A stretch of 64,000 nt of DNA from Gracilariopsis chorda. Its lineage: Eukaryota; Rhodophyta; Florideophyceae; Gracilariales; Gracilariaceae. The position numbers and the translations under genes were made by a program. Shown one piece after another: positions 1 through 58,698 of the stretch. The DNA lies in NCBI GenBank assembly GCA_003194525.1, contig NBIV01000266.1:50700-114699 (forward strand). Direction: 5' to 3'. Numbering within the stretch: position 1 is the stretch's first letter; each line of letters begins with the position of its first letter. The notes under the pieces are model-generated. The model was not told the origin of the DNA. It worked only from the letters and a program-made list of their open reading frames with translations, and made no database searches.

Positions 1-272
1 GCAGCTCGTCATTTTGGTCCAGAACGACCGCTTTATAGGCGCACTCATCTCGTGCGGGAGCCCCCAGAGCAAGAGCTCTCTTGCACCTCCCTGTTGACAA
101 GTGCTTCTTGAGTCCTCCCCTTATTGTTCCAAGCGCCTCGTCCCTCGTATCAAGTACCGCAATGAACACATGACGCGGAGGCATGTAATACATAGGGAGC
201 ATACTGACCAGCAAAAATCAGCCCGTTACAGGTCTTTATCGGACATGGACAAAGTACTGCGATGCTTTCCTT

Positions 273-734
273 TTATAAAGCCCAAACATGTACCATCTCT
301 TGATCGATGCGTTCCACAAATGAATCTTGGGTGGAGTCAAAGCTGACCGGTAACAATCGCCAGAAGCTCTCGAGAGTAGAAGCTCCAGGAGCATGCAGAG
401 TAGTGTGGCGAACATGCATAGAAAGGCAGTCGACACGTGAAGAAAGGTCCTGAACCAATTCCATTACTTTGGCATTTGGAGGAGCCATAGCGGTGCGACT
501 CTCGATGGGAGAGAGGGGTGAGGGCGGAGCCACGGTGGCGGTGCTTGCAGTGGTGGTGGTGGGAGGAGAAGGCGAAGCCAAAGAGGTGGAAGAAGGCAGA
601 GACGCGGTGGCGAGCCACGTGATTGGAGGAAAAGGAGGAGAAGAATAAGCCACCGCAGTAGGGCACCCGATTATAGAGGTGGGAGGAGAAGGCGAAGCCA
701 CAGCGGTAAGCGACGATATTGGAGAGGGAGCCAC
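273..734 (-). CDS. Ser/Pro/Thr-rich hypothetical protein, array copy 1 (early stop)
   Basis: The minus-strand frame carries degenerate blocks such as ASPSPPTS and TTTTASTATVAP, then a more ordinary segment with NAKVMELVQDLSSRVDCL. The blocks come from a DNA repeat: GTGGGAGGAGAAGGCGAAGCC occurs twice on the plus strand (about 559 and 679). No family is recognised. There is no ATG at the open end; the nearest upstream in-frame stop is just before the block, so a spliced leader exon or a non-coding origin are both possible. A second frame over the same bases is also open for 152 codons, which is expected for GC-rich repetitive sequence and lowers confidence. In this copy the frame ends early at VHVWAL because of a TTT-to-TAT type change. 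Confidence 0.3.
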   Translation of the reverse strand: MAPSPISSLTAVASPSPPTSIIGCPTAVAYSSPPFPPITWLATASLPSSTSLASPSPPTTTTASTATVAPPSPLSPIESRTAMAPPNAKVMELVQDLSSRVDCLSMHVRHTTLHAPGASTLESFWRLLPVSFDSTQDSFVERIDQEMVHVWAL

Positions 735-955
735 AGCAACGAGGGTCGTGATTGGATGAGTGAATAAGTGGAGGAAGGTAGCGCCGGAGCGTCAAGGCTC
801 TTAATGGAAGTGGTCACTCTCGGAGAAGGGGGAGCTATAGTGGCCACAGCTTCCAATCGATGGTTTCGCAATTTCATGTTGAGGTTAGGGGTTTACGCTG
901 TGGGCCAGAATGGAAGACTTTGGACTGCGGGGTCTGGGGCCCCGTGGCAGTCTCA

Positions 956-963
956 TATTTATA
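956..963 (-). promoter_or_regulatory. TATA-like box, minus-strand frame
   Basis: TATAAATA on the minus strand lies about 80 bp upstream of an ATG at 877 and 220 bp upstream of the Ser/Pro-rich frame. A GGGGCCCC palindrome lies at 937-944. Copies 2 and 3 have TATAAGTA instead. This and the plus-strand TATA box at 1708 would give divergent transcription of the unit. Confidence 0.4.
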
Positions 964-1675
964 CTGCCTGACCGAAACCATGTTCAGTTCAGAGTGTTCA
1001 CAACAGTTCAAAACGGTTAAAAACCTTGTTGAGCAGAGCGTGCAATGCGTTGCAACGGACGGCGACGACGGCTACAGCAGTTGAAACACTGCTGCAAGCT
1101 TGAGCAGTCTTTCAACCGTTGAGATATTTCACGTAATTCTGCAAAACGAATGCCGATAAAACCTTTTTTCTTGTTGCGCAACCTGGTTGCGCACGTGTTA
1201 ACCGAAGCGGGTTCAACGAAGGAACGAAAACTTATTACAGACGATCGAGGGGCTTGTTGATCATACGCGGGTTATGTACGTTGGTGCAAGTTCTTGCTGT
1301 ACGCACTAGCCGTTGATCCGCGGGCGGATGCGAACGAAGAAAGAGTTGCACACTTCGTACCACGAATGCATCCCAAGCTGCGTTTGTTCAGATGTTTGTT
1401 CAGATGTTTGTTCAGATTTGGACAGAGTTTTGGTACTGATTTAGCATATTATATAATTGCGTCACGTCTACGTAGCACGATCTTACAGTGTATGAAGCTG
1501 TTACTATTTATGGAACCCTAGTGGCGTTCGTTCAGATTTGGATCGAGTTTTGGCACTGATTTCGCATACCTAAAGTAAATTTGGTAGATAACCCTTAGGG
1601 TTAGGATTGCCACCTTGCTTAGCAACCAACTTCGTACATTGGTTTTTAAAATATCTCCCTAAGGTGTGGGTCGAG
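964..1675. other. Divergent intergenic region of the array unit
   Basis: I see no convincing gene here. The region contains a palindrome cluster at 1173-1202 (GTTGCGCAAC, CACGTG, GTTAAC), a 12-bp direct repeat TTCAGATGTTTG with two complete tandem copies and a partial third around 1388-1418, and a telomere-like motif at 1588-1604. A second copy of the TTCAGATTTGGA..GAGTTTTGG phrase lies at about 1530-1556. Confidence 0.6.
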
Positions 1676-1693
1676 ACGGTACAACTGTACCGT
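1676..1693. promoter_or_regulatory. 18-bp dyad upstream of TATA box
   Basis: ACGGTACA-AC-TGTACCGT is a perfect inverted repeat with 8-bp arms, ending 14 bp before the TATA box. It recurs unchanged at 6497-6514, 11316-11333, 16140-16157, 20962-20979 and 25784-25801. The spacing is that of a transcription-factor site or operator; the protein that binds it is unknown. Confidence 0.5.
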
Positions 1694-1707
1694 TGAAATC
1701 ACAACCG

Positions 1708-1716
1708 TATAAAAAG
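1708..1716 (+). promoter_or_regulatory. TATA box of the small spliced gene
   Basis: TATAAAAAG occurs 386 bp upstream of the ATG at 2094. Equivalent boxes start at 6529, 11348, 16172, 20994 and 25816. The long leader between TATA and ATG contains TTGCGGG-AAC-CCCGCAA (about 1818-1834), a 7-bp stem hairpin. Confidence 0.55.
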
Positions 1717-2093
1717 AGCGGTCCATACCTTCAAAGATTTGAATCACTCTCTTGCGATTGGTTCAAAATCTCTCAGAGCTTCGCTTGCCTAGCGACGCTA
1801 AGGTTTCGGCAATAACTTGCGGGAACCCCGCAAAGCTGGTCGATGTCATCAACTAAGCGCTGGAGATTATTGGGAGTGCAGGCGGAGCCCCCAGTTTCAT
1901 GTGGTTTGCCAAAGGCCACAATCTGTCCGCCTAATATCATCGCTATATGCGGTCTGTGAACGCATTTTCATCAGTGTTTTGTCTAACCGAGCCCACTTAC
2001 CGACCTCAACGCTCACCCGTTAATGCGTTGCACCCTTAACACCCCTTCTGATTTGCAACGTATACAGGTCCCACTAGGCCCGTAGCTCGGAAT

Positions 2094-2380
2094 ATGTCTA
2101 GTTCCGGTGGAAGGTTTAGAAACATTATGGGAAGCGGAAGGCAGCTGAAAGACATGGCGGCGAGAGCGATTTCTGCAAAGGTTAACACCTTGCTAAACGC
2201 TGACAAAAACGGCACGCTGCAGAGCACCAATGAAGAGACTCAGCCAACCACTGATGCATCTAAGTCGACATCCGTTGGGGAATCTGCCCCTAGCAATAGC
2301 AAAGAAGTGAAGTAAGTTCAGCTATTCTTTGTCATTACTTTACGACAAGCTACTGAAACTTTCATTGTAGAAGACACTAG
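2094..2380 (+). CDS. Small spliced gene, 75-aa protein of unknown function, copy 1
   Basis: CDS is join 2094-2311, 2371-2380. The ATG opens MSSSGGRFRNIMGSGRQLKD, a basic and probably helical N-terminus, followed by a Ser/Thr/Glu-rich C-terminus with QSTNEETQPTTDASK. The intron 2312-2370 (59 nt) starts GTAAGT, has TACTGAAAC as a plausible branch site and ends TTTCATTGTAG. Splicing replaces an unspliced stop with K-R-H-stop. AATAAA follows at 2442-2447. With the TATA box at 1708, this makes a complete small transcription unit. The N-terminus could be a targeting peptide or a nucleic-acid-binding helix; I recognise no family. The reading frame is intact in all six full copies, unlike the neighbouring APH-like frame, which suggests either selection or recent amplification. 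Confidence 0.6.
2312..2370 (+). other. Spliceosomal intron, 59 nt, copy 1
   Basis: The donor is GTAAGTTC, the branch-like site is TACTGAAAC and the acceptor is TTTCATTGTAG. It is kept with identical ends in the other five copies (for example 7133-7191 in copy 2). Confidence 0.6.
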
Positions 2381-2441
2381 GGGCCTACTAGTGCAGTTAT
2401 TAAGAGGCCGTACAGCTACGTGAGCCCACTACGGGATTTAC

Positions 2442-2447
2442 AATAAA
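2442..2447 (+). terminator. AATAAA polyadenylation signal, small gene
   Basis: The hexamer lies 62 bp downstream of the predicted stop. It is conserved in every full unit. Confidence 0.45.
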
Positions 2448-3079
2448 CCTACCTCCACTCCATGACCCAAGTGGTTGTGTATATTTATAGTTTATCTCAT
2501 TACGTACTGCCGTTCTAAGATTCCTTCTTTGTGTTCGAGTACTGCATCATGCCACATCGTAGGATTCCTCACCAATGAAGAGAGGCAATGAAGGAGGCTG
2601 CAACTGGGATGTTTTCTCTTTACACAGCTGTTCTTCTGACCGGTCGAGAGTCCGCTCTCCTTCCACAGCTAACGCATCATAGTTGATAAAGCGAACAAGT
2701 GGTCGCAAATCGACCCAACGGACGCAACAACGAGGATCCGAGCACTTCAACATGCAGTACACGGCACCTTGACCACAGCGGTTGCGATGTCTATTTCAGA
2801 GGCGACAGTCGTCGGAAATCCAAATGCCCTAGCGGTTGAAAACATCTAAGAATAAACACGTGTATTAAATATACAAAATTTGGAGGAATCTCAAAAAAAT
2901 TTGGGTGGAAAAATTCAGAAACCTTTGGGAAAAAGGGTACCGCAGACAATTAGGGCTATCAAAAACTGTTGCCAAAATCCCAATCGCCGCCCAAGCACTC
3001 CCTGAGAATAGAAAAGCCACTCTGAGAGAATGTAGTCATCTACGTGTATTACATTTACAAAGTTTGGAGGAAGCTCTGA
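2448..3079. other. Spacer between small gene and APH-like frame, with degenerate internal repeat
   Basis: No confident gene. A 68-codon minus-strand frame (ATG at about 2753, end 2547) with motif DRSEEQLCKEK is shared by the copies but is unrecognised and is disrupted in copy 4. A phrase ACGTGTATTAAATATACAAA (from about 2858) followed by a GGTACCGCAGACAATTAG phrase recurs in altered form at 3041-3105, so this spacer includes an old local duplication. Confidence 0.4.
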
Positions 3080-4591
3080 AAAAGGTTACCGCGGGCAATT
3101 AGCGGTAACAGGCTAAGTAAGACGATTTCAGTCTCGTTACCTTCCGATCGGGACCTATTTGGACCAATTACTCCGAGATATTTGGGCTGGGATACTGACG
3201 GAAGTAACCGTTTGGAAAGGATACTTACTGCAGGTAACAAAGCGAAAGTCAATTGTGATCCCATTTACAAACGATCAGTACAGCGGGACAATGTCACATC
3301 GCGATCCCATGACCTGTTTAACGTTTGTCACCGTCACAGGACATGTACTATAGCGTGCACAGATCGTAATTGCACTCCAGATCACATTAGATCTGCAGTG
3401 AGCGAATTTGGATTTGGAGATGTTCGGAAACGTGTATTGGAGGAGTACGTGGAAAATTTGAAATTACACTGCCCCGTGTGCAACCTGTGCTGTAAGGACC
3501 CCTTGGCCTACGATCCCCGCTACCTTACAGAAGAACATCAGCACCGAGTGTCAGCATTTCTGGAATAGGACACACCTCCAGACTTCATTTTGGTAAAGCA
3601 AGACAAGACTTCTCTAGTCATTGTTGAGCATGATATGCTCGACATCCTTTATTTTCTCCAGCAGCACGAAAAGCACTCTCTATCAAAGAATGGTGCTGGT
3701 ATGTATCCTTATTCTATGCAGGGTTCGTTCAAGGAGGCTGTAGCATGGGTACGCGATGAGTTTGTCCGCCTGGGGCTACATGTTGTGCAAATAGAGCGAG
3801 TGAAAAGAAAAGCAGAAGGATGCGTTCTGTGTGCTCTTACGTGTGAAGGATCTCGCCTGTATTTCAAAGAAGTTGGGCCGAATTTTGGTCTGAACGAAGT
3901 AAGAACTACTGAAGTCCTTGCAGAAGCAATGTAATATCGGCTTCCATTGCTTCTCAGTGTAGAGAGAGACCGAAAATAGATGCTCTTGCAAGACCACGGG
4001 CAAACTATTGAAAAGAGAGAAATATCCATTTCAAACCACCCTGGTCTATTTCGCTTTTTTCTAACTGAATGGGGAAATATTCAAAGAAGGTCGATCTCCA
4101 AAATACGCCAGCTCCAGCGCAGTGGGCTTGAAACAGTTGATGAATCGTTTATGAGAGAAAGAGTGTTGAACATGATGTCAGATGGAGAATGGCTATTACT
4201 ATGTTTGAAAGAGGTAAATAGGGCAGACTCTGAGTTGGAGATAGATCTTTTCTCTCTGAAGAAGACATTTCTTAATTATGTTGATCGTGCTTGTAGGTTG
4301 ATGTGGCAAATCCAAATGCCGTTGACTCCGGCTCATAGAGATTTACATCCAGTGAGTGTCATGGTTTCTGAACATTGTCAAATTCGGCTTATTGATCTTA
4401 TTTCTACACGTATTTCGTATCCCTTTCCATATTTTTACCTCTTTGCTGCTCATTGCAATGCTAATGACATGAATCTTGGGTTCTATTTAAAGCTGTGGAA
4501 GGATTACGGTACCATGGAGAAGTTGTGGAAGCTTTACGAGGTGACAGAGGCGTTTGAAATGGTAATCAGCTGTGTCACTTTCCACAGATAG
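3080..4591 (+). pseudogene. APH/kinase-like phosphotransferase frame with conserved internal stops, copy 1
   Basis: One reading frame runs from after a TGA at 3077 to 4591, interrupted only by TAG (3566), TAA (3932) and TAG (3977). The first third is Cys/His-rich (CHRHRTCTIACTDRNC, CPVCNLCC). Next come the N-lobe-like segment RLYFKEVGPNFGLNE, then LPLLLSVERDRK and MLLQDHG, the kinase catalytic-loop motif HRDLHPVSVMV (Asp codon 4340) and RLIDL (Asp codon 4394), then YPFPYFYLF. This order is that of the aminoglycoside-phosphotransferase fold (Pfam APH). The metal-binding Asn of the loop is Ser here. The second TAG stands where the family has Trp before M-L-L, so a TGG-to-TAG mutation is likely. 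I read it as a pseudogene that decayed before the array amplified. Stop readthrough or recoding is a less likely alternative. Confidence 0.6.
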
Positions 4592-4797
4592 TATTGTAAT
4601 ACAGAGAGAAGCAGAAGATCTCTAAAACAACAGGCAACCAAAGCGTTTAGTTTCTTTGTAACTCAACTTTGTGGATTCCCGGAGTTGAGGGGAGAGAACG
4701 GTGCTTAATAGTGAGACTGCAATTATGTCCAAGAGTGGATGATCGTTTTTCAACTAATATCCTTCTATGCGGGACTTTACCCTGGATAGCTACAAAC

Positions 4798-5037
4798 TCA
4801 GCATACTTCGTCTAAACGTTGTTGCAGCTCGTCATTTTGGTCCAGAACGACCGCTTTATAGGCGCACTCATCTCGTGCGGGAGCCCCCAGAGCAAGAGCT
4901 CTCTTGCACCTCCCTGTTGACAAGTGCTTCTTGAGTCCTCCCCTTATTGTTCCAAGCGCCTCGTCCCTCGTATCAAGTACCGCAATGAACACATGACGCG
5001 GAGGCATGTAATACATAGGGAGCATACTGACCAGCAA
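4798..5037 (-). CDS. Charged hypothetical frame at unit junction, about 75 aa
   Basis: The minus-strand frame has a first ATG at about 5025 and ends at 4798. It has mixed charged and hydrophobic composition with no low-complexity blocks (motifs PPRHVFIAVLDTRDEAL and LQQRLDEVC). The same frame occurs at 9618-9857, 14440-14679, 19260-19499 and 28906-29145. In copy 6 a missing C near 24228 shifts its end (24098-24322). No family is recognised. It may be a 3' exon of the Ser/Pro-rich frame lying upstream on the same strand. Confidence 0.3.
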   Translation of the reverse strand: MLVSMLPMYYMPPRHVFIAVLDTRDEALGTIRGGLKKHLSTGRCKRALALGAPARDECAYKAVVLDQNDELQQRLDEVC

Positions 5038-5557
5038 AAATCAGCCCGTTACAGGTCTTTATCGGACATGGACAAAGTACTGCGATGCTTTCCTTTTTTA
5101 AAGCCCAAACATGTACCGTCTCTTGATCGATGCGTTCCACAAATGAATCTTGGGTGGAGTCAAAGCTGACCGGTAACAATCGCCAGAAGCTCTCGAGAGT
5201 AGAAGCTCCAGGAGCATGCAGAGTAGTGTGGCGAACATGCATAGAAAGGCAGTCGACACGTGAAGAAAGGTCCTGAACCAATTCCATTACTTTGGCATTC
5301 GGAGGAGCCATAGCGGTGCGACTCTCGATGGGAGAGAGGGGTGAGGGCGGAGCCACGGTGGCGGTGCTTGCAGTGGTGGTGGTGGGAGGAGAAGGCGAAG
5401 CCAAAGAGGTGGAAGAAGGCAGAGACGCGGTGGCGAGCCACGTGATTGGAGGAGAAGGAGGAGAAGAATAAGCCACCGCAGTAGGGCACCCGATTATAGA
5501 GGTGGGAGGAGAAGGCGAAGCCACAGCGGTAAGCGACGATATTGGAGAGGGAGCCAC
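4973..5557 (-). CDS. Ser/Pro/Thr-rich hypothetical protein, array copy 2
   Basis: This is the fuller version of the frame (194 codons). It runs through the Ser/Pro-rich blocks, the NAKVMELVQ segment and a Cys-containing tail with VLCPCPIKTCNG. It overlaps the 5' part of another minus-strand frame, 4798-5037, whose charged sequence (motifs GTIRGGLKKHL and DQNDELQQRLDEV) looks protein-like. The two frames are out of phase, and I found no GT-AG pair that would join them. Function unknown. Confidence 0.35.
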   Translation of the reverse strand: MAPSPISSLTAVASPSPPTSIIGCPTAVAYSSPPSPPITWLATASLPSSTSLASPSPPTTTTASTATVAPPSPLSPIESRTAMAPPNAKVMELVQDLSSRVDCLSMHVRHTTLHAPGASTLESFWRLLPVSFDSTQDSFVERIDQETVHVWALKKESIAVLCPCPIKTCNGLIFAGQYAPYVLHASASCVHCGT

Positions 5558-6914
5558 AGCAACGAGGCTCGTGATTGGATGAGTGAATAAGTGGAGGAAG
5601 GTAGCGCCGGAGCGTCAAGGCTCTTAATGGAAGTGGTCACTCTCGGAGAAGGGGAGCTATAGTGGCCACAGCTTCCAATCGATGGTTTCGCAATTTCATG
5701 TTGAGGTTAGGGTTTACGCTGTGGGCCAGAATGGAAGACTTTGGACTGCGGGGTCTGGGGCCCCGTGGCAGTCTCATACTTATACTGCCTGACCGAAACC
5801 ATGTTCAGTTCAGAGTGTTCACAACAGTTCAAAACGGTTAAAAACCTTATTGAGCAGAGCGTGCAATGCGTTGCAACGGACGGCGACGACGGCTACAGCG
5901 GTTGAAACACTGCTGCAAGCTTGAGCAGTCTTTCAACCGTTGAGATATTTCACGTAATTCTGCAAAACGAATGCCGATAAAACCTTTTTTCTTGTTGCGC
6001 AACCTGGTTGCGCACGTGTTAACCGAAGCGGGTTCAACGAAGGAACGAAAACTTATTACAGACGATCGAGGGGCTTGTTGATCATACGCGGGTTATGTAC
6101 GTTGGTGCAAGTTCTTGCTGTACGCACTAGCCGTTGATCCGCGGGCGGATGCGAACGAAGAAAGAGTTGCACACTTCGTACCACGAATGCATCCCAAGCT
6201 GCGTTTGTTCAGATGTTTGTTCAGATGTTTGTTCAGATTTGGACAGAGTTTTGGTACTGATTTAGCATATTATATAATTGCGTCACGTCTACGTAGCACG
6301 ATCTTACAGTGTATGAAGCTGTTACTATTTATGGAACCCTAGTGGCGTTCGTTCAGATTTGGATCGAGTTTTGGCACTGATTTCGCATACCTAAAGTAAA
6401 TTTGGTAGATAACCCTTAGGGTTAGGATTGCCACCTTGCTTAGCAACCAACTTCGTACATTGGTTTTTAACATATCTCCCTAAGGTGTGGGTCGAGACGG
6501 TACAACTGTACCGTTGAAATCACAACCGTATAAAAAGAGCGGTCCATACCTTCAAAGATTTGAATCACTCTCTTGCGATTGGTTCAAAATCTCTCAGAGC
6601 TTCGCTTGCCTAGCGACGCTAAGGTTTCGGCAATAACTTGCGGGAACCCCGCAAAGCTGGTCGATGTCATCAACTAAGCGCTGGAGATTATTGGGAGTGC
6701 AGGCGGAGCCCCCAGTTTCGTGTGGTTTGCCAAAGGCCACAATCTGTCCGCCTAATATCATCGCTATATGCGGTCTGTGAACGCATTTTCATCAGTGTTT
6801 TGTCTAACCGAGCCCACTTACCGACCTCAACGCTCACCCAGTAATGCGTTGCACCCTTAACACCCCTTCTGATTTGCAACGTATACAGGTCCCACTAGGC
6901 CCGTAGCTCGGAAT

Positions 6915-7201
6915 ATGTCTAGTTCCGGTGGAAGGTTTAGAAACATTATGGGAAGCGGAAGGCAGCTGAAAGACATGGCGGCGAGAGCGATTTCTGCAAA
7001 GGTTAACACCTTGCTAAACGCTGACAAAAACGGCACGCTGCAGAGCACCAATGAAGAGACTCAGCCAACCACTGATGCATCTAAGTCGACATCCGTTGGG
7101 GAATCTGCCCCTAGCAATAGCAAAGAAGTGAAGTAAGTTCAGCTATTCTTTGTCATTACTTTACGACAAGCTACTGAAACTTTCATTGTAGAAGACACTA
7201 G
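6915..7201 (+). CDS. Small spliced gene, array copy 2
   Basis: CDS is join 6915-7132, 7192-7201. The predicted protein is identical to copy 1, and the intron ends and AATAAA are conserved. Confidence 0.6.
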
Positions 7202-7900
7202 GGGCCTACTAGTGCAGTTATTAAGAGGCCGTACAGCTACGTGAGCCCACTACGGGATTTACAATAAACCTACCTCCACTCCATGACCCAAGTGGTTGTG
7301 TATATTTATAGTTTATCTCATTACGTACTGCCGTTCTAAGATTCCTTCTTTGTGTTCGAGTACTGCATCATGCCACATCGTAGGATTCCTCACCAATGAA
7401 GAGAGGCAATGAAGGAGGCTGCAACTGGGATGTTTTCTCTTTACACAGCTGTTCTTCTGACCGGTCGAGAGTCCGCTCTCCTTCCACAGCTAACGCATCA
7501 TAGTTGATAAAGCGAACAAGTGGTCGCAAATCGACCCAACGGACGCAACAACGAGGATCCGAGCACTTCAACATGCAGTACACGGCACCTTGACCACAGC
7601 GGTTGCGATGTCTATTTCAGAGGTGACAGTCGTCGGAAATCCAAATGCCCTAGCGGTTGAAAACATCTAAGAATAAACACGTGTATTTAATATACAAAAT
7701 TTGGAGGAATCTCAAAAAAATTTGGGTGGAAAAATTCAGAAACCTTTGGGAAAAAGGGTACCGCAGACAATTAGGGCTATCAAAAACTGTTGCCAAAATC
7801 CCAATCGCCGCCCAAGCACTCCCTGAGAATAGAAAAGCCACTCTGAGAGAATATAGTCATCTACGTGTATTACATTTACAAAGTTTGGAGGAAGCTCTGA

Positions 7901-9411
7901 AAAAGGTTACCGTGGGCAATTAGCGGTAACAGGCTAAGTAAGACGATTTCAGTCTCGTTACCTTCCGATCGGGACCTATTTGGACCAATTACTCCGAGAT
8001 ATTTGGGCTGGGATACTGACGGAAGTAACCGTTTGGAAAGGATACTTACTGCAGGTAACAAAGCGAAAGTCAATTGTGATCCCATTTACAAACGATCAGT
8101 ACAGCGGGACAATGTCACATCGCGATCCCATGACCTGTTTAACGTTTGTCACCGTCACAGGACATGTACTATAGCGTGCACAGATCGTAATTGCACTCCA
8201 GATCACATTAGATCTGCAGTGAGCGAATTTGGATTTGGAGATGTTCGGAAACGTGTATTGGAGGAGTACGTGGAAAATTTGAAATTACACTGCCCCGTGT
8301 GCAACCTGTGCTGTAAGGACCCTTGGCCTACGATCCCCGCTACCTTACAGAAGAACATCAGCACCGAGTGTCAGCATTTCTGGAATAGGACACACCTCCA
8401 GACTTCATTTTGGTAAAGCAAGACAAGACTTCTCTAGTCATTGTTGAGCATGATATGCTCGACATCCTTTATTTTCTCCAGCAGCACGAAAAGCACTCTC
8501 TATCAAAGAATGGTGCTGGTATGTATCCTTATTCTATGCAGGGTTCGTTCAAGGAGGCTGTAGCATGGGTACGCGATGAGTTTGTCCGCCTGGGGCTACA
8601 TGTTGTGCAAATAGAGCGAGTGAAAAGAAAAGCAGAAGGATGCGTTCTGTGTGCTCTTACGTGTGAAGGATCTCGCCTGTATTTCAAAGAAGTTGGGCCG
8701 AATTTTGGTCTGAACGAAGTAAGAACTACTGAAGTCCTTGCAGAAGCAATGTAATATCGGCTTCCATTGCTTCTCAGTGTAGAGAGAGACCGAAAATAGA
8801 TGCTCTTGCAAGACCACGGGCAAACTATTGAAAAGAGAGAAATATCCATTTCAAACCACCCTGGTCTATTTCGCTTTTTTCTAACTGAATGGGGAAATAT
8901 TCAAAGAAGGTCGATCTCCAAAATACGCGAGCTCCAGCGCAGTGGGCTTGAAACAGTTGATGAATCGTTTATGAGAGAAAGAGTGTTGAACATGATGTCA
9001 GATGGAGAATGGCTATTACTATGTTTGAAAGAGGTAAATAGGGCAGACTCTGAGTTGGAGATAGATCTTTTCTCTCTGAAGAAGACATTTCTTAATTATG
9101 TTGATCGTGCTTGTAGGTTGATGTGGCAAATCCAAATGCCGTTGACTCCGGCTCATAGAGATTTACATCCAGTGAGTGTCATGGTTTCTGAACATTGTCA
9201 AATTCGGCTTATTGATCTTATTTCTACACGTATTTCGTATCCCTTTCCATATTTTTACCTCTTTGCTGCTCATTGCAATGCTAATGACATGAATCTTGGG
9301 TTCTATTTAAAGCTGTGGAAGGATTACGGTACCATGGAGAAGTTGTGGAAGCTTTACGAGGTGACAGAGGCGTTTGAAATGGTAATCAGCTGTGTCACTT
9401 TCCACAGATAG
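7901..9411 (+). pseudogene. APH-like pseudogene, array copy 2
   Basis: It has the same three internal stops (TAG near 8386, TAA near 8752, TAG near 8797) and in addition loses one C near 8322, so the Cys-rich section goes out of frame before the first stop. Confidence 0.6.
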
Positions 9412-9916
9412 TATTGTAATACAGAGAGAAGCAGAAGATCTCTAAAACAACAGGCAACCAAAGCGTTTAGTTTCTTTGTAACTCAACTTTGTGGATTCCC
9501 GGAGTTGAGGGGAGAGAACGGTGCTTAATAGTGAGACTGCAATTATGTCCAAGAGTGGATGATCGTTTTTCAACTAATATCCTTCTATGCGGGACTTTAC
9601 CCTGGATAGCTACAAACTCAGCATACTTCGTCTAAACGTTGTTGCAGCTCGTCATTTTGGTCCAGAACGACCGCTTTATAGGCGCACTCATCTCGTGCGG
9701 GAGCCCCCAGAGCAAGAGCTCTCTTGCACCTCCCTGTTGACAAGTGCTTCTTGAGTCCTCCCCTTATTGTTCCAAGCGCCTCGTCCCTCGTATCAAGTAC
9801 CGCAATGAACACATGACGCGGAGGCATGTAATACATAGGGAGCATACTGACCAGCAAAAATCAGCCCGTTACAGGTCTTTATCGGACATGGACAAAGTAC
9901 TGCGATGCTTTCCTTT

Positions 9917-20020: not shown

Positions 20021-21379
20021 AGCAACGAGGCTCGTGATTGGATGAGTGAATAAGTGGAGGAAGGCAGCGCCGGAGCGTCAAGGCTCTTAATGGAAGTGGT
20101 CACTCTCGGAGAAGGGGGAGCTATAGTGGCCAAAGCTTCCAATCGATGGTTTCGCAATTTCATGTTGAGGTTAGGGGTTTACGCTGTGGGCCAGAATGGA
20201 AGACTTTGGACTGCGGGGTCTGGGGCCCCGTGGCAGTCTCATATTTATACTGCCTGACCGAAACCATGTTCAGTTCAGAGTGTTCACAACAGTTCAAAAC
20301 GGTTAAAAACCTTGTTGAGCAGAGCGTGCAATGCGTTGCAACGGACGGCGACGACGGCTACAGCGGTTGAAACACTGCTGCAAGCTTGAGCAGTCTTTCA
20401 ACCGTTGAGATATTTCACGTAATTCTGCAAAACGAATGCCGATAAAACCTTTTTTCTTGTTGCGCAACCTGGTTGCGCACGTGTTAACCGAAGCGGGTTC
20501 AACGAAGGAACGAAAACTTATTACAGACGATCGAGGGGCTTGTTGATCATACGCGGGTTATGTACGTTGGTGCAAGTTCTTGCTGTACGCACTAGCCGTT
20601 GATCCGCGGGCGGATGCGAACGAAGAAAGAGTTGCACACTTCGTACCACGAATGCATCCCAAGCTGCGTTTGTTCAGATGTTTGTTCAGATGTTTGTTCA
20701 GATTTGGACAGAGTTTTGGTACTGATTTAGCATATTATATAATTGCGTCACGTCTACGTAGCACGATCTTACAGTGTATGAAGCTGTTACTATTTATGGA
20801 ACCCTAGTGGCGTTCGTTCAGATTTGGATCGAGTTTTGGCACTGATTTCGCATACCTAAAGTAAATTTGGTAGATAACCCTTAGGGTTAGGATTGCCACC
20901 TTGCTTAGCAACCAACTTCGTACATTGGTTTTTAACATATCTCCCTAAGGTGTGGGTCGACACGGTACAACTGTACCGTTGAAATCACAACCGTATAAAA
21001 AGAGCGGTCCATACCTTCAAAGATTTGAATCACTCTCTTGCGATTGGTTCAAAATCTCTCAGAGCTTCGCTTGCCTAGCGACGCTAGGGTTTCGGCAATA
21101 ACTTGCGGGAACCCCGCAAAGCTGGTCGATGTCATCAACTAAGCGCTGGAGATTATTGGGAGTGCAGGCGGAGCCCCCAGTTTCGTGTGGTTTGCCAAAG
21201 GCCACAATCTGTCCGCCTAATATCATCGCTATATGCGGTCTGTGAACGCATTTTCATCAGTGTTTTGTCTAACCGAGCCCACTTACCGACCTCAACGCTC
21301 ACCCGTTAATGCGTTGCACCCTTAACACCCCTTCTGATTTGCAACGTATACAGGTCCCACTAGGCCCGTAGCTCGCAAT

Positions 21380-21666
21380 ATGTCTAGTTCCGGTGGAAGG
21401 TTTAGAAACATTATGGGAAGCGGAAGGCAGCTGAAAGACATGGCGGCGAGAGCGATTTCTGCAAAGGTTAACACCTTGCTAAACGCTGACAAAAACGGCA
21501 CGCTGCAGAGCACCAATGAAGAGACTCAGCCAACCACTGATGCATCTAAGTCGACATCCGTTGGGGAATCTGCCCCTAGCAATAGCAAAGAAGTGAAGTA
21601 AGTTCAGCTATTCTTTGTCATTACTTTACGACAAGCTACTGAAACTTTCATTGTAGAAGACACTAG
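21380..21666 (+). CDS. Small spliced gene, array copy 5
   Basis: CDS is join 21380-21597, 21657-21666. The protein is as in copy 1; the base four upstream of the ATG is C instead of G. Confidence 0.6.
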
Positions 21667-22365
21667 GGGCCTACTAGTGCAGTTATTAAGAGGCCGTACA
21701 GCTACGTGAGCCCACTACGGGATTTACAATAAACCTACCTCCACTCCATGACCCAAGTGGTTGTGTATATTTATAGTTTATCTCATTACGTACTGCCGTT
21801 CTAAGATTCCTTCTTTGTGTTCGAGTACTGCATCATGCCACATCGTAGGATTCCTCACCAATGAAGAGAGGCAATGAAGGAGGCTGCAACTGGGATGTTT
21901 TCTCTTTACACAGCTGTTCTTCTGACCGGTCGAGAGTCCGCTCTCCTTCCACAGCTAACGCATCATAGTTGATAAAGCGAACAAGTGGTCGCAAATCGAC
22001 CCAACGGACGCAACAACGAGGATCCGAGCACTTCAACATGCAGTACACGGCACCTTGACCACAGCGGTTGCGATGTCTATTTCAGAGGCGACAGTCGTCG
22101 GAAATCCAAATGCCCTAGCGGTTGAAAACATCTAAGAATAAACACGTGTATTAAATATACAAAATTTGGAGGAATCTCAAAAAAATTTGGGTGGAAAAAT
22201 TCAGAAACCTTTGGGAAAAAGGGTACCGCAGACAATTAGGGCTATCAAAAACTGTTGCCAAAATCCCAATCGCCGCCCAAGCACTCCCTGAGAATAGAAA
22301 AGCCACTCTGAGAGAATGTAGTCATCTACGTGTATTACATTTACAAAGTTTGGAGGAAGCTCTGA

Positions 22366-23877
22366 AAAAGGTTACCGCGGGCAATTAGCGGTAACAGGCT
22401 AAGTAAGACGATTTCAGTCTCGTTACCTTCCGATCGGGACCTATTTGGACCAATTACTCCGAGATATTTGGGCTGGGATACTGACGGAAGTAACCGTTTG
22501 GAAAGGATACTTACTGCAGGTAACAAAGCGAAAGTCAATTGTGATCCCATTTACAAACGATCAGTACAGCGGGACAATGTCACATCGCGATCCCATGACC
22601 TGTTTAACGTTTGTCACCGTCACAGGACATGTACTATAGCGTGCACAGATCGTAATTGCACTCCAGATCACATTAGATCTGCAGTGAGCGAATTTGGATT
22701 TGGAGATGTTCGGAAACGTGTATTGGAGGAGTACGTGGAAAATTTGAAATTACACTGCCCCGTGTGCAACCTGTGCTGTAAGGACCCCTTGGCCTACGAT
22801 CCCCGCTACCTTACAGAAGAACATCAGCACCGAGTGTCAGCATTTCTGGAATAGGACACACCTCCAGACTTCATTTTGGTAAAGCAAGACAAGACTTCTC
22901 TAGTCATTGTTGAGCATGATATGCTCGACATCCTTTATTTTCTCCAGCAGCACGAAAAGCACTCTCTATCAAAGAATGGTGCTGGTATGTATCCTTATTC
23001 TATGCAGGGTTCGTTCAAGGAGGCTGTAGCATGGGTACGCGATGAGTTTGTCCGCCTGGGGCTACATGTTGTGCAAATAGAGCGAGTGAAAAGAAAAGCA
23101 GAAGGATGCGTTCTGTGTGCTCTTACGTGTGAAGGATCTCGCCTGTATTTCAAAGAAGTTGGGCCGAATTTTGGTCTGAACGAAGTAAGAACTACTGAAG
23201 TCCTTGCAGAAGCAATGTAATATCGGCTTCCATTGCTTCTCAGTGTAGAGAGAGACCGAAAATAGATGCTCTTGCAAGACCACGGGCAAACTATTGAAAA
23301 GAGAGAAATATCCATTTCAAACCACCCTGGTCTATTTCGCTTTTTTCTAACTGAATGGGGAAATATTCAAAGAAGGTCGATCTCCAAAATACGCGAGCTC
23401 CAGCGCAGTGGGCTTGAAACAGTTGATGAATCGTTTATGAGAGAAAGAGTGTTGAACATGATGTCAGATGGAGAATGGCTATTACTATGTTTGAAAGAGG
23501 TAAATAGGGCAGACTCTGAGTTGGAGATAGATCTTTTCTCTCTGAAGAAGACATTTCTTAATTATGTTGATCGTGCTTGTAGGTTGATGTGGCAAATCCG
23601 AATGCCGTTGACTCCGGCTCATAGAGATTTACATCCAGTGAGTGTCATGGTTTCTGAACATTGTCAAATTCGGCTTATTGATCTTATTTCTACACGTATT
23701 TCGTATCCCTTTCCATATTTTTACCTCTTTGCTGCTCATTGCAATGCTAATGACATGAATCTTGGGTTCTATTTAAAGCTGTGGAAGGATTACGGTACCA
23801 TGGAGAAGTTGTGGAAGCTTTACGAGGTGACAGAGGCGTTTGAAATGGTAATCAGCTGTGTCACTTTCCACAGATAG
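22366..23877 (+). pseudogene. APH-like pseudogene, array copy 5
   Basis: It has the same three internal stops and no private disruption. It shares the IRMPLTP variant with copies 4 and 6. Confidence 0.6.
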
Positions 23878-24257
23878 TATTGTAATACAGAGAGAAGCAG
23901 AAGATCTCTAAAACAACAGGCAACCAAAGCGTTTAGTTTCTTTGTAACTCAACTTTGTGGATTCCCGGAGTTGAGGGGAGAGAACGGTGCTTAATAGTAA
24001 GACTGCAATTATGTCCAAGAGTGGATGATCGTTTTTCAACTAATATCCTTCTATGCGGGACTTTACCCTGGATAGCTACAAACTCAGCATACTTCGTCTA
24101 AACGTTGTTGCAGCTCGTCATTTTGGTCCAGAACGACCGCTTTATAGGCGCACTCATCTCGTGCGGGAGCCCCCAGAGCAAGAGCTCTCTTGCACCTCCC
24201 TGTTGACAAGTGCTTCTTGAGTCCTCCCTTATTGTTCCAAGCGCCTCGTCCCTCGTA

Positions 24258-24842
24258 TCAAGTACCGCAATGAACACATGACGCGGAGGCATGTAATACA
24301 TAGGGAGCATACTGACCAGCAAAAATCAGCCCGTTACAGGTCTTTATCGGACATGGACAAAGTACTGCGATGCTTTCCTTTTTTAAAGCCCAAACATGTA
24401 CCGTCTCTTGATCGATGCGTTCCACAAATGAATCTTGGGTGGAGTCAAAGCTGACCGGTAACAATCGCCAGAAGCTCTCGAGAGTAGAAGCTCCAGGAGC
24501 ATGCAGAGTATTGTGGCGAACATGCATAGAAAGGCAGTCGACACGTGAAGAAAGGTCCTGAACCAATTCCATTACTTTGGCATTCGGAGGAGCCATAGCG
24601 GTGCGACTCTCGATGGGAGAGAGGGGTGAGGGCGGAGCCACGGTGGCGGTGCTTGCAGTGGTGGTGGTGGGAGGAGAAGGCGAAGCCAAAGAGGTGCAAG
24701 AAGGCAGAGACGCGGTGGCGAGCCACGTGATTGGAGGAGAAGGAGGAGAAGAATAAGCCACCGCAGTAGGGCACCCGATTATAGAGGTGGGAGGAGAAGG
24801 CGAAGCCACAGCGGTAAGCGACGATATTGGAGAGGGAGCCAC
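24258..24842 (-). CDS. Ser/Pro/Thr-rich hypothetical protein, array copy 6
   Basis: The frame has full length with one Ser-to-Cys change in the repeat blocks (plus strand GAGGTGCAAG). Its tail equals that of copy 2. Confidence 0.33.
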   Translation of the reverse strand: MAPSPISSLTAVASPSPPTSIIGCPTAVAYSSPPSPPITWLATASLPSCTSLASPSPPTTTTASTATVAPPSPLSPIESRTAMAPPNAKVMELVQDLSSRVDCLSMHVRHNTLHAPGASTLESFWRLLPVSFDSTQDSFVERIDQETVHVWALKKESIAVLCPCPIKTCNGLIFAGQYAPYVLHASASCVHCGT

Positions 24843-26201
24843 AGCAACGAGGCTCGTGATTGGATGAGTGAATAAGTGGAGGAAGGCAGCGCCGGAGCGT
24901 CAAGGCTCTTAATGGAAGTGGTCACTCTCGGAGAAGGGGGAGCTATAGTGGCCAAAGCTTCCAATCGATGGTTTCGCAATTTCATGTTGAGGTTAGGGGT
25001 TTACGCTGTGGGCCAGAATGGAAGACTTTGGACTGCGGGGTCTGGGGCCCCGTGGCAGTCTCATATTTATACTGCCTGACCGAAACCATGTTCAGTTCAG
25101 AGTGTTCACAACAGTTCAAAACGGTTAAAAACCTTGTTGAGCAGAGCGTGCAATGCGTTGCAACGGACGGCGACGACGGCTACAGCGGTTGAAACACTGC
25201 TGCAAGCTTGAGCAGTCTTTCAACCGTTGAGATATTTCACGTAATTCTGCAAAACGAATGCCGATAAAACATTTTTTCTTGTTGCGCAACCTGGTTGCGC
25301 ACGTGTTAACCGAAGAGGGTTCAACGAAGGAACGAAAACTTATTACAGACGATCGAGGGGCTTGTTGATCATACGCGGGTTATGTACGTTGGTGCAAGTT
25401 CTTGCTGTACGCACTAGCCGTTGATCCGCGGGCGGATGCGAACGAAGAAAGAGTTGCACACTTCGTACCACGAATGCATCCCAAGCTGCGTTTGTTCAGA
25501 TGTTTGTTCAGATGTTTGTTCAGATTTGGACAGAGTTTTGGTACTGATTTAGCATATTATATAATTGCGTCACGTCTACGTAGCACGATCTTACAGTGTA
25601 TGAAGCTGTTACTATTTATGGAACCCTAGTGGCGTTCGTTCAGATTTGGATCGAGTTTTGGCACTGATTTCGCATACCTAAAGTAAATTTGGTAGATAAC
25701 CCTTAGGGTTAGGATTGCCACCTTGCTTAGCAACCAACTTCGTACATTGGTTTTTAACATATCTCCCTAAGGTGTGGGTCGACACGGTACAACTGTACCG
25801 TTGAAATCACAACCGTATAAAAAGAGCGGTCCATACCTTCAAAGATTTGAATCACTCTCTTGCGATTGGTTCAAAATCTCTCAGAGCTTCGCTTGCCTAG
25901 CGACGCTAGGGTTTCGGCAATAACTTGCGGGAACCCCGCAAAGCTGGTCGATGTCATCAACTAAGCGCTGGAGATTATTGGGAGTGCAGGCGGAGCCCCC
26001 AGTTTCGTGTGGTTTGCCAAAGGCCACAATCTGTCCGCCTAATATCATCGCTATATGCGGTCTGCGAACGCATTTTCATCAGTGTTTTGTCTAACCGAGC
26101 CCACTTACCGACCTCAACGCTCACCCGTTAATGTGCTGCACCCTTAACACCCCTTCTGATTTGCAACGTATACAGGTCCCACTAGGCCCGTAGCTCGCAA
26201 T

Positions 26202-26488
26202 ATGTCTAGTTCCGGTGGAAGGTTTAGAAACATTATGGGAAGCGGAAGGCAGCTGAAAGACATGGCGGCGAGAGCGATTTCTGCAAAGGTTAACACCTTG
26301 CTAAACGCTGACAAAAACGGCACGCTGCAGAGCACCAATGAAGAGACTCAGCCAACCACTGATGCATCTAAGTCGACATCCGTTGGGGAATCTGCCCCTA
26401 GCAATAGCAAAGAAGTGAAGTAAGTTCAGCTATTCTTTGTCATTACTTTACGACAAGCTACTGAAACTTTCATTGTAGAAGACAGTAG
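26202..26488 (+). CDS. Small spliced gene, array copy 6
   Basis: CDS is join 26202-26419, 26479-26488. The last residue is Gln rather than His; the stop codon is retained. Confidence 0.58.
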
Positions 26489-27187
26489 GGGCCTACTAGT
26501 GCAGTTATTAAGAGGCCGTACAGCTACGTGAGCCCACTACGGGATTTACAATAAACCTACCTCCACTCCATGACCCAAGTGGTTGTGTATATTTATAGTT
26601 TATCTCATTACGTACTGCCGTTCTAAGATTCCTTCTTTGTGTTCGAGTACTGCATCATGCCACATCGTAGGATTCCTCACCAATGAAGAGAGGCAATGAA
26701 GGAGGCTGCAACTGGGATGTTTTCTCTTTACACAGCTGTTCTTCTGACCGGTCGAGAGTCCGCTCTCCTTCCACAGCTAACGCATCATAGTTGATAAAGC
26801 GAACAAGTGGTCGCAAATCGACCCAACGGACGCAACAACGAGGATCCGAGCACTTCAACATGCAGTACACGGCACCTTGACCACAGCGGTTGCGATGTCT
26901 ATTTCAGAGGTGACAGTCGTCGGAAATCCAAATGCCCTAGCGGTTGAAAACATCTAAGAATAAACACGTGTATTAAATATACAAAATTTGGAGGAATCTC
27001 AAAAAAATTTGGGTGGAAAAATTCAGAAACCTTTGAGAAAAAGGGTACCGCAGACAATTAGGGCTATCAAAAACTGTTGCCAAAATCCCAATCGCCGCCC
27101 AAGCACTCCCTGAGAATAGAAAAGCCACTCTGAGAGAATGTAGTCATCTACGTGTATTACATTTACAAAGTTTGGAGGAAGCTCTGA

Positions 27188-28699
27188 AAAAGGTTACCGC
27201 GGGCAATTAGCGGTAACAGGCTAAGTAAGACGATTTCAGTCTCGTTACCTTCCGATCGGGACCTATTTGGACCAATTACTCCGAGATATTTGGGCTGGGA
27301 TACTGACGGAAGTAACCGTTTGGAAAGGATACTTACTGCAGGTAACAAAGCGAAAGTCAATTGTGATCCCATTTACAAACGATCAGTACAGCGGGACAAT
27401 GTCACATCGCGATCCCATGACCTGTTTAACGTTTGTCACCGTCACAGGACATGTACTATAGCGTGCACAGATCGTAATTGCACTCCAGATCACATTAGAT
27501 CTGCAGTGAGCGAATTTGGATTTGGAGATGTTCGGAAACGTGTATTGGAGGAGTACGTGGAAAATTTGAAATTACACTGCCCCGTGTGCAACCTGTGGTG
27601 TAAGGACCCCTTGGCCTACGATCCCCGCTACCTTACAGAAGAACATCAGCACCGAGTGTCAGCATTTCTGGAATAGGACACACCTCCAGACTTCATTTTG
27701 GTAAAGCAAGACAAGACTTCTCTAGTCATTGTTGAGCATGATATGCTCGACATCCTTTATTTTCTCCAGCAGCACGAAAAGCACTCTCTATCAAAGAATG
27801 GTGCTGGTATGTATCCTTATTCTATGCAGGGTTCGTTCAAGGAGGCTGTAGCATGGGTACGCGATGAGTTTGTCCGCCTGGGGCTACATGTTGTGCAAAT
27901 AGAGCGAGTGAAAAGAAAAGCAGAAGGATGCGTTCTGTGTGCTCTTACGTGTGAAGGATCTCGCCTGTATTTCAAAGAAGTTGGGCCGAATTTTGGTCTG
28001 AACGAAGTAAGAACTACTGAAGTCCTTGCAGAAGCAATGTAATATCGGCTTCCATTGCTTCTCAGTGTAGAGAGAGACCGAAAATAGATGCTCTTGCAAG
28101 ACCACGGGCAAACTATTGAAAAGAGAGAAATATCCATTTCAAACCACCCTGGTCTATTTCGCTTTTTTCTAACTGAATGGGGAAATATTCAAAGAAGGTC
28201 GATCTCCAAAATACGCGAGCTCCAGCGCAGTGGGCTTGAAACAGTTGATGAATCGTTTATGAGAGAAAGAGTGTTGAACATGATGTCAGATGGAGAATGG
28301 CTATTACTATGTTTGAAAGAGGTAAATAGGGCAGACTCTGAGTTGGAGATAGATCTTTTCTCTCTGAAGAAGACATTTCTTAATTATGTTGATCGTGCTT
28401 GTAGGTTGATTTGGCAAATCCGAATGCCGTTGACTCCGGCTCATAGAGATTTACATCCAGTGAGTGTCATGGTTTCTGAACATTGTCAAATTCGGCTTAT
28501 TGATCTTATTTCTACACGTATTTCGTATCCCTTTCCATATTTTTACCTCTTTGCTGCTCATTGCAATGCTAATGACATGAATCTTGGGTTCTATTTAAAG
28601 CTGTGGAAGGATTACGGTACCATGGAGAAGTTGTGGAAGCTTTACGAGGTGACAGAGGCGTTTGAAATGGTAATCAGCTGTGTCACTTTCCACAGATAG
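27188..28699 (+). pseudogene. APH-like pseudogene, array copy 6
   Basis: It has the same three internal stops. A Cys in the CPVCNLCC cluster is Trp, which would harm a metal site if the protein were made. Confidence 0.6.
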
Positions 28700-28931
28700 T
28701 ATTGTAATACAGAGAGAAGCAGAAGATCTCTAAAACAACAGGCAACCAAAGCGTTTAGTTTCTTTGTAACTCAACTTTGTGGATTCCCGGAGTTGAGGGG
28801 AGAGAACGGTGCTTAATAGTAAGACTGCAATTATGTCCAAGAGTGGATGATCGTTTTTCAACTAATATCCTTCTATGCGGGACTTTACCCTGGATAGCTA
28901 CAAACTCAGCATACTTCGTCTAAACGTTGTT

Positions 28932-30358
28932 GCAGCTCGTCATTTTGGTCCAGAACGACCGCTTTATAGGCGCACTCATCTCGTGCGGGAGCCCCCAGAG
29001 CAAGAGCTCTCTTGCACCTCCCTGTTGACAAGTGCTTCTTGAGTCCTCCCCTTATTGTTCCAAGCGCCTCGTCCCTCGTATCAAGTACCGCAATGAACAC
29101 ATGACGCGGAGGCATGTAATACATAGGGAGCATACTGACCAGCAAAAATCAGCCCGTTACAGGTCTTTATCGGACATGGACAAAGTACTGCGATGCTTTC
29201 CTTTTTTAAAGCCCAAACATGTACCGTCTCTTGATCGATGCGTTCCACAAATGAATCTTGGGTGGAGTCAAAGCTGACCGGTAACAATCGCCAGAAGCTC
29301 TCGAGAGTAGAAGCTCCAGGAGCATGCAGAGTATTGTGGCGAACATGCATAGAAAGGCAGTCGACACGTGAAGAAAGGTCCTGAACCAATTCCATTACTT
29401 TGGCATTCGGAGGAGCCATAGCGGTGCGACTCTCGATGGGAGAGAGGGGTGAGGGCGGAGCCACGGTGGCGGTGCTTGCAGTGGTGGTGGTGGGAGGAGA
29501 AGGCGAAGCCAAAGAGGTGGAAGAAGGCAGAGACGCGGTGGCGAGCCACGTGATTGGAGGAGAAGGAGGAGAAGAATAAGCCACCGCAGTAGGGCACCCG
29601 ATTATAGAGGTGGGAGGAGAAGGCGAAGCCACAGCGGTAAGCGACGATATTGGAGAGGGAGCCACAGCAACGAGGCTCGTGATTGGATGAGTGAATAAGT
29701 GGAGGAAGGCAGCGCCGGAGCGTCAAGGCTCTTAATGGAAGTGGTCACTCTCGGAGAAGGGGAAGCTATAGTGGCCACAGCTTCCAATCGATGGTTTCGC
29801 AATTTCATGTTGAGGTTAGGGGTTTACGCTGTGGGCCAGAATGGAAGACTTTGGACTGCGGGGTCTGGGGCCCCGTGGCAGTCTCATATTTATACTGCCT
29901 GACCGAAACCATGTTCAGTTCAGAGTGTTCACAACAGTTCAAAACGGTTAAAAACCTTGTTGAGCAGAGCGTGCAATGCGTTGCAACGGGCGGCGACGAC
30001 GGCTACAGCGGTTGAAACACTGCTGCAAGCTTGAGCAGTCTTTCAACCGTTGAGATATTTCACGTAACTCTTCAAAACGAATGCAGACAAAACCTTTTTT
30101 CTTGTTGTGCAACCTGGTTGCGCACGTGTTAACCGAAGAGGGTTCAACGAAGGAACGAAAACTTATTACAGACGATCGAGGGGCTTGTTGATCATACGCG
30201 GGTTATGTACGTTGGTGCAAGTTCTTGCTGTACGCACTAGCCGTCGATCGGCGGGCGGATGCGAAGGAAGAAAGAGTTGCACACTTCGTACCACGAATGC
30301 ATCCCAAGCTGCGTTGGTTCAGATGTTTGTTCAGATTTGGACAGAGTTTTGGTACTGA
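28932..30358 (+). repeat. tandem array, copy 7, terminal partial unit
   Basis: Only the first about 1427 bp of the unit is present. The match stops at about 30358, within a stretch that reads GTTTTGGTACTGAT in every other copy. From 30061 onward there are about nine substitutions and loss of one 12-bp internal repeat within 300 bp, clearly more than among inner copies. This fits an array edge that escapes homogenisation. Confidence 0.95.
29081..29665 (-). CDS. Ser/Pro/Thr-rich hypothetical protein, array copy 7
   Basis: The frame has full length and lies entirely within the partial terminal unit. This is the only one of the unit's genes left in copy 7. Confidence 0.33.
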   Translation of the reverse strand: MAPSPISSLTAVASPSPPTSIIGCPTAVAYSSPPSPPITWLATASLPSSTSLASPSPPTTTTASTATVAPPSPLSPIESRTAMAPPNAKVMELVQDLSSRVDCLSMHVRHNTLHAPGASTLESFWRLLPVSFDSTQDSFVERIDQETVHVWALKKESIAVLCPCPIKTCNGLIFAGQYAPYVLHASASCVHCGT

Positions 30359-30360
30359 TC

Positions 30361-51911: not shown

Positions 51912-51913
51912 AT

Positions 51914-52919: not shown

Positions 52920-53019
52920 TTCTACGCGTGTGTTCCAGCAATTTCTGGCAAATTCCGAAAAATTAGCGACCGACACAACCCGAACCTCAAGGGTTGCCAC
53001 GCCGTGGCAACCTGAAAAC

Positions 53020-58598: not shown

Positions 58599-58698
58599 TT
58601 CTACGCGTGTGTTCCAGCAATTTCTGGCAAATTCCGAAACATTAGCGACCGACACAACCCCAACCTCAAGGGTTGCCACGCCGTGGCAACCTGAAAAC

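Follow-up and report, generated by a model that had tools for sequence, protein, structure and literature searches.

A 4.82-kb head-to-tail repeat in Gracilariopsis chorda, a probable in-place tandem segmental duplication

The contig (C266) carries a genuine tandem repeat of a 4.82-kb unit, larger than the original prediction stated and very probably formed by tandem segmental duplication in place, with subsequent homogenization by recombination; as such, it is a further case of an ordinary, known kind of genome growth. Alignment of the unit to the contig by blastn placed the array at contig positions 30208-81058 (50.85 kb), where ten full copies and a partial copy at each end, all on the + strand, follow one another head to tail at the only locus of the unit. 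The window, that is, the whole 64,000-nucleotide stretch analysed, cuts the array at its edge; four further full copies and the left partial copy (c0) lie upstream on the contig. The phase of the unit is arbitrary and was fixed by the window start. The six full copies and one partial copy originally described in the window are borne out by blastn and, for the full copies, by their lengths:

Window 1..30359, + strand: right 60% of the array, c5-c10 complete and c11 truncated
Window 1..4823, + strand: copy c5
Window 4824..9643, + strand: copy c6
Window 9644..14465, + strand: copy c7
Window 14466..19285, + strand: copy c8
Window 19286..24109, + strand: copy c9
Window 24110..28931, + strand: copy c10
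Window 28932..30359, + strand: truncated right-edge copy c11 (unit 1-~1440), from blastn

The full copies in the window measure 4823, 4820, 4822, 4820, 4824 and 4822 bp, so that the reported 4-bp spread stands there (4820-4824), but all ten full copies on the contig range from 4795 to 4826 bp. The exact copy number rests on one assembly, and the count is unproven. The following parts were distinguished in the unit and just beyond the array on its right (evidence in brackets):

Unit 1..2590, no strand: part with no DNA match outside the array (own-genome DNA search)
Unit 273..791, - strand: Ser/Pro-rich frame (frames, protein search)
Unit 2094..2380, + strand: possible mini-gene of 75 aa (sequence, exon 1 translation)
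Unit 2599..2798, no strand: dispersed repeat fragment (own-genome matches)
Unit 2857..3567, + strand: interrupted Ty3/gypsy-like pieces (blastn; frames by reading)
Unit 3567..3570, no strand: putative duplication junction between the gypsy-like fragment and an internal point of an APH-like gene (blastn, tblastn)
Unit 3570..4669, + strand: 3' part of an APH/TCAD9-like gene, a pseudogene carrying in-frame stops (tblastn, frames, Pfam on the C152 frame)
Window 30352..31802, no strand: dispersed repeat directly adjoining the array on its right (own-genome search)

The search of the unit against its own assembly, a check suggested with the original prediction, found unit 1-2590 in the array only (12 of 12 DNA matches on C266 fall inside it), whereas 2599-2798 and 2857-3567 also match elsewhere. 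Among the matches listed for the dispersed repeat fragment, 30 of 40 lie outside the array. The sequence of unit 2857-3567 reads as the probable 5' region of a Ty3/gypsy element in interrupted pieces, which match four loci at 76-91% by piece (mostly 82-84%) and two more at 70-75%; at one matching locus, L015, gag-pol-like frames follow downstream (by reading). In protein searches, the minus-strand Ser/Pro-rich frame (273-791) within unit 1-2590 has weak matches elsewhere in the assembly, the best with E values of 8.8e-5 and 6.2e-4, and in the 11 copies that span it this frame is unbroken in 6, stopped in 1 and split in 4. The longest frame in the first unit has 203 aa, and Pfam at E<=1 returned only a weak APH match for five unit frames.

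The view that the unit is neither rDNA nor a simple satellite was upheld. An RNA-gene array (rDNA or other) was rejected: Rfam gave no family on the window at gathering score and none at E<=1 on window 1-5000, and ARAGORN gave no tRNA. Satellite DNA would have a short monomer in high copy number at several loci, and here a 4.82-kb unit is present in ten full copies at one locus. A tandem LTR retrotransposon array, initially suspected from a 49-bp piece that recurs in pairs ~4680 bp apart, was likewise rejected, with only ~0.7 kb of gypsy-like pieces and no gag-pol seen in the unit. The proposed divergent promoters found no backing: TATAWAW occurs near chance, at 6 sites per unit versus 3.8 in shuffled sequence, and a count of 6 was attained in 22.6% of the 500 shuffles. 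A scan for an oomycete initiator pattern gave no match. As to the lineage of the host, Chitin_synth_2 found no counterpart in the genome, and a piece of adenosylhomocysteinase matched 38 distinct PDB sequences that pointed to no particular lineage.

The phosphotransferase-like frame is indeed present in the unit, but it is a pseudogene, a truncated remnant containing stops; the description of the unit as gene-bearing is accordingly weak. By tblastn, unit 3570-4669 corresponds to residues 112-478 of a frame of 491 aa on another contig (C152). Residues 17-478 of this protein align to the left flank plus c0 in one alignment, whereas against the unit the match starts only at residue 112, the break falling at unit ~3570, where c0 begins. 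Two in-frame stops are common to c0 and nine of the ten full copies, and c2 is frame-shifted. The APH/TCAD9-like assignment is weak, scores being below the Pfam cut-offs for both families: PF01636 (APH) gives 11.6 bits for the unit frame and 17.8 for the C152 relative (cut-off 23.2), and TCAD9 gives 22.2 for the C152 frame (cut-off 40). The C152 frame had no match in the PDB at E<=0.01.

The left edge of the array is continuous, and in register, with the 5' part of the APH/TCAD9-like gene, of which the repeats carry only the 3' part. Within the unit, the gypsy-like match stops at 3567 and the gene match begins at ~3570. At the right edge, c11 breaks off at unit ~1440, next to a dispersed repeat for which the own-genome search gave 7 matches (81-86%) spread over 5 other contigs; five of these matches begin at window 30352-30359. 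No terminal inverted repeat was found for this dispersed repeat. Continuation of the gypsy sequence past 3567, which would mark the right ancestral border, was not found on C266 by blastn with the L015 element. One of the two original borders, the left, is thus seen, and the right can have been lost later.

Mean pairwise substitution among copies is 0.53%, in agreement with the recent amplification or strong homogenization originally proposed. The ten full copies differ at 88 substitution sites, and in 36 columns the minor base is common to at least two copies. Similarity between copies falls with their separation in the array (Mantel r=0.48, p=0.0015). The left partial copy c0 is set apart from each of c1-c10 by 39-49 differences in the 1248-1254 sites compared. 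Within unit 1-1440, c1, c2 and c11 lie on average 1.61%, 1.23% and 1.13% from the other copies, versus 0.49% among c3-c10, although the non-edge copies c3 and c5 are also fairly divergent (1.05% and 0.98%). Nine sites up to unit 1440 are diagnostic, in that c1 and c2 share one allele and c3-c10 all lack it; c11 carries the left-edge allele at five of them and the inner one at four. Some variants common to several copies are scattered and do not occur in neighbouring copies. Private gap columns number 20 in c2 and 17 in c3.

Like a tandem segmental duplication, the array is head to tail at one locus and consists of local sequence in which a novel junction can be identified. Its starting point would have been an APH/TCAD9-like gene with two in-frame stops at contig ~29.9-31.3 kb, the rest of the unit, including the dispersed repeat and the gypsy-like fragment, lying downstream of the broken gene. 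As the junction suggests, a head-to-tail duplication of ~4.82 kb may then have arisen when the gypsy fragment became fused to an internal point of the gene; the repair pathway behind this founding junction is a guess. The variant pattern points to unequal crossing-over or conversion as the process that could have raised the array to ten full copies, and the same exchange would have spread variants through its middle; another dispersed repeat now lies at the truncated right edge. Gene continuity on the left flank, the junction, the common stops, the array-only part, the greater likeness of neighbouring copies, the diverged edges and the left-edge alleles of c11 all favour this in-place origin. 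The absence of the right border from C266, the inner alleles of c11, the divergence of c3 and c5 and the scattered variants count against it, as do the single assembly, the private gaps of c2 and c3 and the low variation in unit 2091-2802. In itself, the unit is most likely without function.

Expansion of one or a few units by the assembler, to which the reliance on a single assembly and the gap-rich c2 and c3 would lend themselves, is the least probable of the alternatives: the array is not one unit multiplied in this way, because the copies carry different and partly common substitutions at the sites and columns counted above, and divergence grows with separation, up to the diverged edges. 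Insertion at the locus of a concatemer derived from a plasmid, a virus or another extrachromosomal circle is very improbable. The head-to-tail order and nearly equal copy lengths fit such an event, but the gene at the left edge is the repeated one, in register, and neither 72,556 plasmid records nor 50,697 phage records yielded a match, results that also speak against the integrated circular or selfish element first considered. No replication family was found by Pfam in five unit frames, and a viral relative of the 203-aa frame, the one frame tried against IMG/VR, was rejected, neither of two pattern matches being confirmed. Excision of a circle from the locus followed by homologous reinsertion is indistinguishable from unequal crossing-over.

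It is very unlikely too, if a little less so, that selection maintains the array for the dosage it gives to the 75-aa mini-gene or to an RNA encoded in unit 1.7-2.4 kb. The spliced mini-gene first described has its frame and intron (ATG at 2094, exon 2094-2311, 59-nt intron 2312-2370, stop 2378-2380), and its exon 1 is in one piece in nine of the ten full copies, with 1 variable site versus 4.0 expected (P=0.09). Beyond the array, however, exon 1 finds no match at E<=1, and codon usage, in a test trained on one gene, does not favour the frame; support from relatives or codon usage being absent, the mini-gene is a candidate only, its status as a gene unsupported. Over unit 2091-2802, a stretch chosen after the fact, 2 sites vary versus 13 expected, which could hint at constraint. 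Yet low variation need not mean function, because the pseudogene piece 3569-3934 (2 versus 6.7 expected, P 0.037) and the repeat-derived part (10 versus 17.7, P 0.034) are also low. The want of an Rfam match at E<=1 and the near-chance TATA count likewise argue against selection. There is a very slight chance that the transcript concerned (from the spliced 75-aa frame or from 1.7-2.4 kb of the unit) is specific to the lineage and that the array is maintained and homogenized because it multiplies this transcript; a new gene would then have arisen next to a decaying one and been amplified for dosage.

Taken as an in-place duplication, the array brings together in one contig the likely founding junction, the adjacent parent gene, a homogenized middle and other alleles at both edges, and offers a clean example of array growth in a eukaryotic genome, of little functional weight unless the mini-gene is expressed. 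Tandem Ty3/gypsy elements lie at window 51.9-64.0 kb on the same contig; they are likewise head to tail and several kilobases long, unlike the array unit in the gag-pol content considered above. The satellites of Phytophthora parasitica, as described in PMC7290008, resemble the array in forming long homogenized tandem arrays; they include PpSat1 (337 bp), PpSat2 (143 bp) and two further families (294 and 420 bp) derived from transposable elements. Their units of 143-420 bp occupy 2-18 scaffolds, whereas the 4.82-kb unit is found at one locus and is probably of local origin. In Phytophthora sojae, according to the account in PMC2661136, the Avr1a locus has four near-identical 5.2-kb segments and Avr3a lies in a 10.8-kb segmental duplication: there too, tandem segments several kilobases long and almost identical occupy a single locus, and the Avr1a unit, like ours, contains transposon-like fragments. 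The Avr1a and Avr3a units carry a transcribed effector gene and vary in copy number among strains, whereas the array unit holds a broken gene end and a candidate mini-gene, in more copies than at either Phytophthora sojae locus as reported there.

With the first copy of the unit (window 1-4822) as query against contig C266, the array spanned positions 30208-81058 and comprised ten full and two partial unit matches, all on the plus strand and numbered here from c0 (left partial) through c1-c10 (full) to c11 (right partial). The assembly searched amounted to 91.3 Mb in 1081 contigs, the window corresponding to C266:50700-114699; its size and gypsy elements led us to regard it as eukaryotic. The tandem repeat of the original prediction was borne out, with six of the ten full copies (4820-4824 bp) and the right partial one lying in window 1-30359, but its proposed extent held only within the window, whose edge cuts the array; over all ten full copies, lengths range from 4795 to 4826 bp.

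Comparison of the ten full copies yielded 88 substitution sites and 60 gap columns, of which those private to c2 (20) and c3 (17) suggest that the sequence of these two copies is poorly polished. At 47 columns, the minor state occurs in at least two copies (36 by bases, 11 by gaps only), with part of the shared variants scattered along the array rather than neighbouring. Mean pairwise substitution is 0.53%, and the farther apart two copies lie, the more they tend to diverge (Mantel r = 0.48, P = 0.0015). Both shared minor states and separation-dependent divergence are expected of real copies, whereas a single unit expanded by the assembler would lack them, so the latter explanation is unlikely. 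The exact copy number, as given by the assembly, is provisional.

The features of the unit and of the right border are the following:
Unit 1-2590 (within), minus strand: Ser/Pro-rich frame; among the 11 copies spanning it, 6 have it unbroken, 4 split and 1 interrupted by a stop
Unit 2094-2380, plus strand: possible spliced 75-aa mini-gene, from sequence and translation (ATG at 2094, GTAAGT at 2312, AG ending at 2370, stop at 2378-2380)
Unit 2599-2798: dispersed repeat, with 30 of the 40 matches listed outside the array
Unit 2857-3567: Ty3/gypsy-like pieces, with interrupted matches at four loci (76-91%, mostly 82-84%)
Unit 3570-4669, plus strand: 3' part of an APH/TCAD9-like (phosphotransferase-like) gene, related to an open 491-aa frame on contig C152
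Window 30352-31802: dispersed repeat of ~1.45 kb adjoining the right end of the array, from the own-genome search

Unit 1-2590 gave 12 DNA matches assembly-wide in a search that skips very common words, all 12 in the array; at the protein level, the Ser/Pro-rich frame had weak matches elsewhere (C34, E = 8.8e-5; C234, E = 6.2e-4) and three further ones with E of 0.017-0.48. The 49-bp stretch at unit 2599-2647 is also present on C13, C19, C63 and C146, in pairs ~4680 bp apart, like LTRs of an unrelated element. Two further loci, on C84 and C30, match unit 2857-3567 at 70-75%. At locus L015, which carries a gypsy-like element, the frames following this match were assigned by inspection to Ty3/gypsy gag-pol; the single L015 frame put to Pfam gave no match. 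The window also contains a second tandem array (51912-64000) of head-to-tail Ty3/gypsy elements with a period of ~5679 bp, 99% alike and reaching past the contig end, which look like elements with shared LTRs.

The C152 relative scored 22.2 bits for TCAD9 and 17.8 bits for APH in Pfam, both under the cut-offs, so that 'APH/TCAD9-like' denotes resemblance, not membership. Its protein aligned over residues 17-478 to the left flank plus c0 (35.8%, E = 8e-104) and only from residue 112 to the repeat unit (36.2%, E = 3e-75), indicating that the front of the gene sits in the left flank and the back end is what is repeated. Two in-frame stops in the flank-plus-c0 frame occupy the same positions in nine of the ten full copies, c2 being frame-shifted; hence, the gene was broken before amplification. 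The start of c0 (unit 3570) falls immediately after the end of the gypsy-like match (3567). Most simply, one event would have linked a gypsy fragment to a mid-gene position and thereby produced the tandem duplication in place. On contig C7, eight weak matches to the APH-like frame (E = 1.4e-5 to 1.2e-4) lie at 70.9-390.6 kb, all of them within open frames 463-498 aa long.

The phosphotransferase-like frame (203 aa) exceeds the longest frame of each of 200 shuffles, but as the gene content originally proposed it makes no strong case, lacking its front and carrying the two stops and additional breaks in c1, c2 and c8. For the predicted spliced mini-gene, a frame with splice sites is present, but codon usage, not distinctive in a test trained on one gene, and the absence of own-genome matches beyond the array at E ≤ 1 make no strong case for a gene. 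Its exon is undivided in nine full copies out of ten; at 87 aa, its frame falls below the median length of the longest frame in shuffles (126). Variable sites are few in the exon (1 versus 4.0 expected, P = 0.09) and in unit 2091-2802, a stretch picked after the data were seen (2 versus 13). Since variation is also low in the pseudogene piece 3569-3934 (2 versus 6.7) and the repeat-derived 2599-3567 (10 versus 17.7), recent conversion explains this equally well. Each unit has 6 TATA-like sites, versus 3.8 in shuffles. Judged from sequence, a strong functional case is absent for every unit frame.

Under repeated unequal crossing-over or conversion, the middle of an array loses alleles that its edges keep. 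Compared with the full copies over 1248-1254 sites, c0 shows 39-49 differences, whereas c3-c10 differ among themselves by 0.38% in this stretch. Over unit 1-1440, mean distance to other copies is 1.61% for c1, 1.23% for c2 and 1.13% for c11, versus 0.49% among c3-c10, with c3 (1.05%) and c5 (0.98%) likewise high. Private substitutions number 19 in c1, 1-7 in each of c2-c8 and c10, and none in c9. Such edge-retained alleles fit the theoretical prediction. The pattern is incomplete: of nine diagnostic sites up to unit 1440, at which c1 and c2 are alike and differ from every one of c3-c10, c11 shares the left-edge allele at five but carries the inner one at the other four, three of which are adjacent bases.

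On the right, c11 ends at unit ~1440, where the dispersed repeat starts. Seven matches to this repeat (81-86%) lie on five other contigs, five beginning at window 30352-30359 and four finishing at 31793-31802; weaker ones included, there are 35, with 11 on C266. The search for terminal inverted repeats in it was negative, and its frame, which is reminiscent of a DDE transposase, had no Pfam match at E ≤ 0.01. The L015 gypsy element as query revealed no continuation right of the array on the contig. The right border may have been lost either through insertion with deletion or through rearrangement. Farther right, the window holds an inverted repeat pair (33960-34873 and 37035-37944; ~0.91 kb, 81% alike, ~2.2 kb between), an adenosylhomocysteinase gene piece with the NAD domain (42341-42898; Pfam E = 1.2e-46; exon or pseudogene) and 2.5 tandem copies of 163 bp (48961-49368).

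Among the matches listed from the Phytophthora/oomycete literature on tandem arrays and duplications, no title fitted the unit, which is not proof that it is unpublished. A 2006 paper reportedly describes amplification at a Phytophthora avirulence locus. The P. parasitica satellites (PMC7290008) have short units of 143 and 337 bp that occupy 11 and 18 scaffolds, in contrast to the 4.82-kb unit here. The nearest precedents encountered are in P. sojae (PMC2661136): at Avr1a, an array in which a 5.2-kb segment containing transposon-like fragments is present four times, and at Avr3a, a segment of 10.8 kb.
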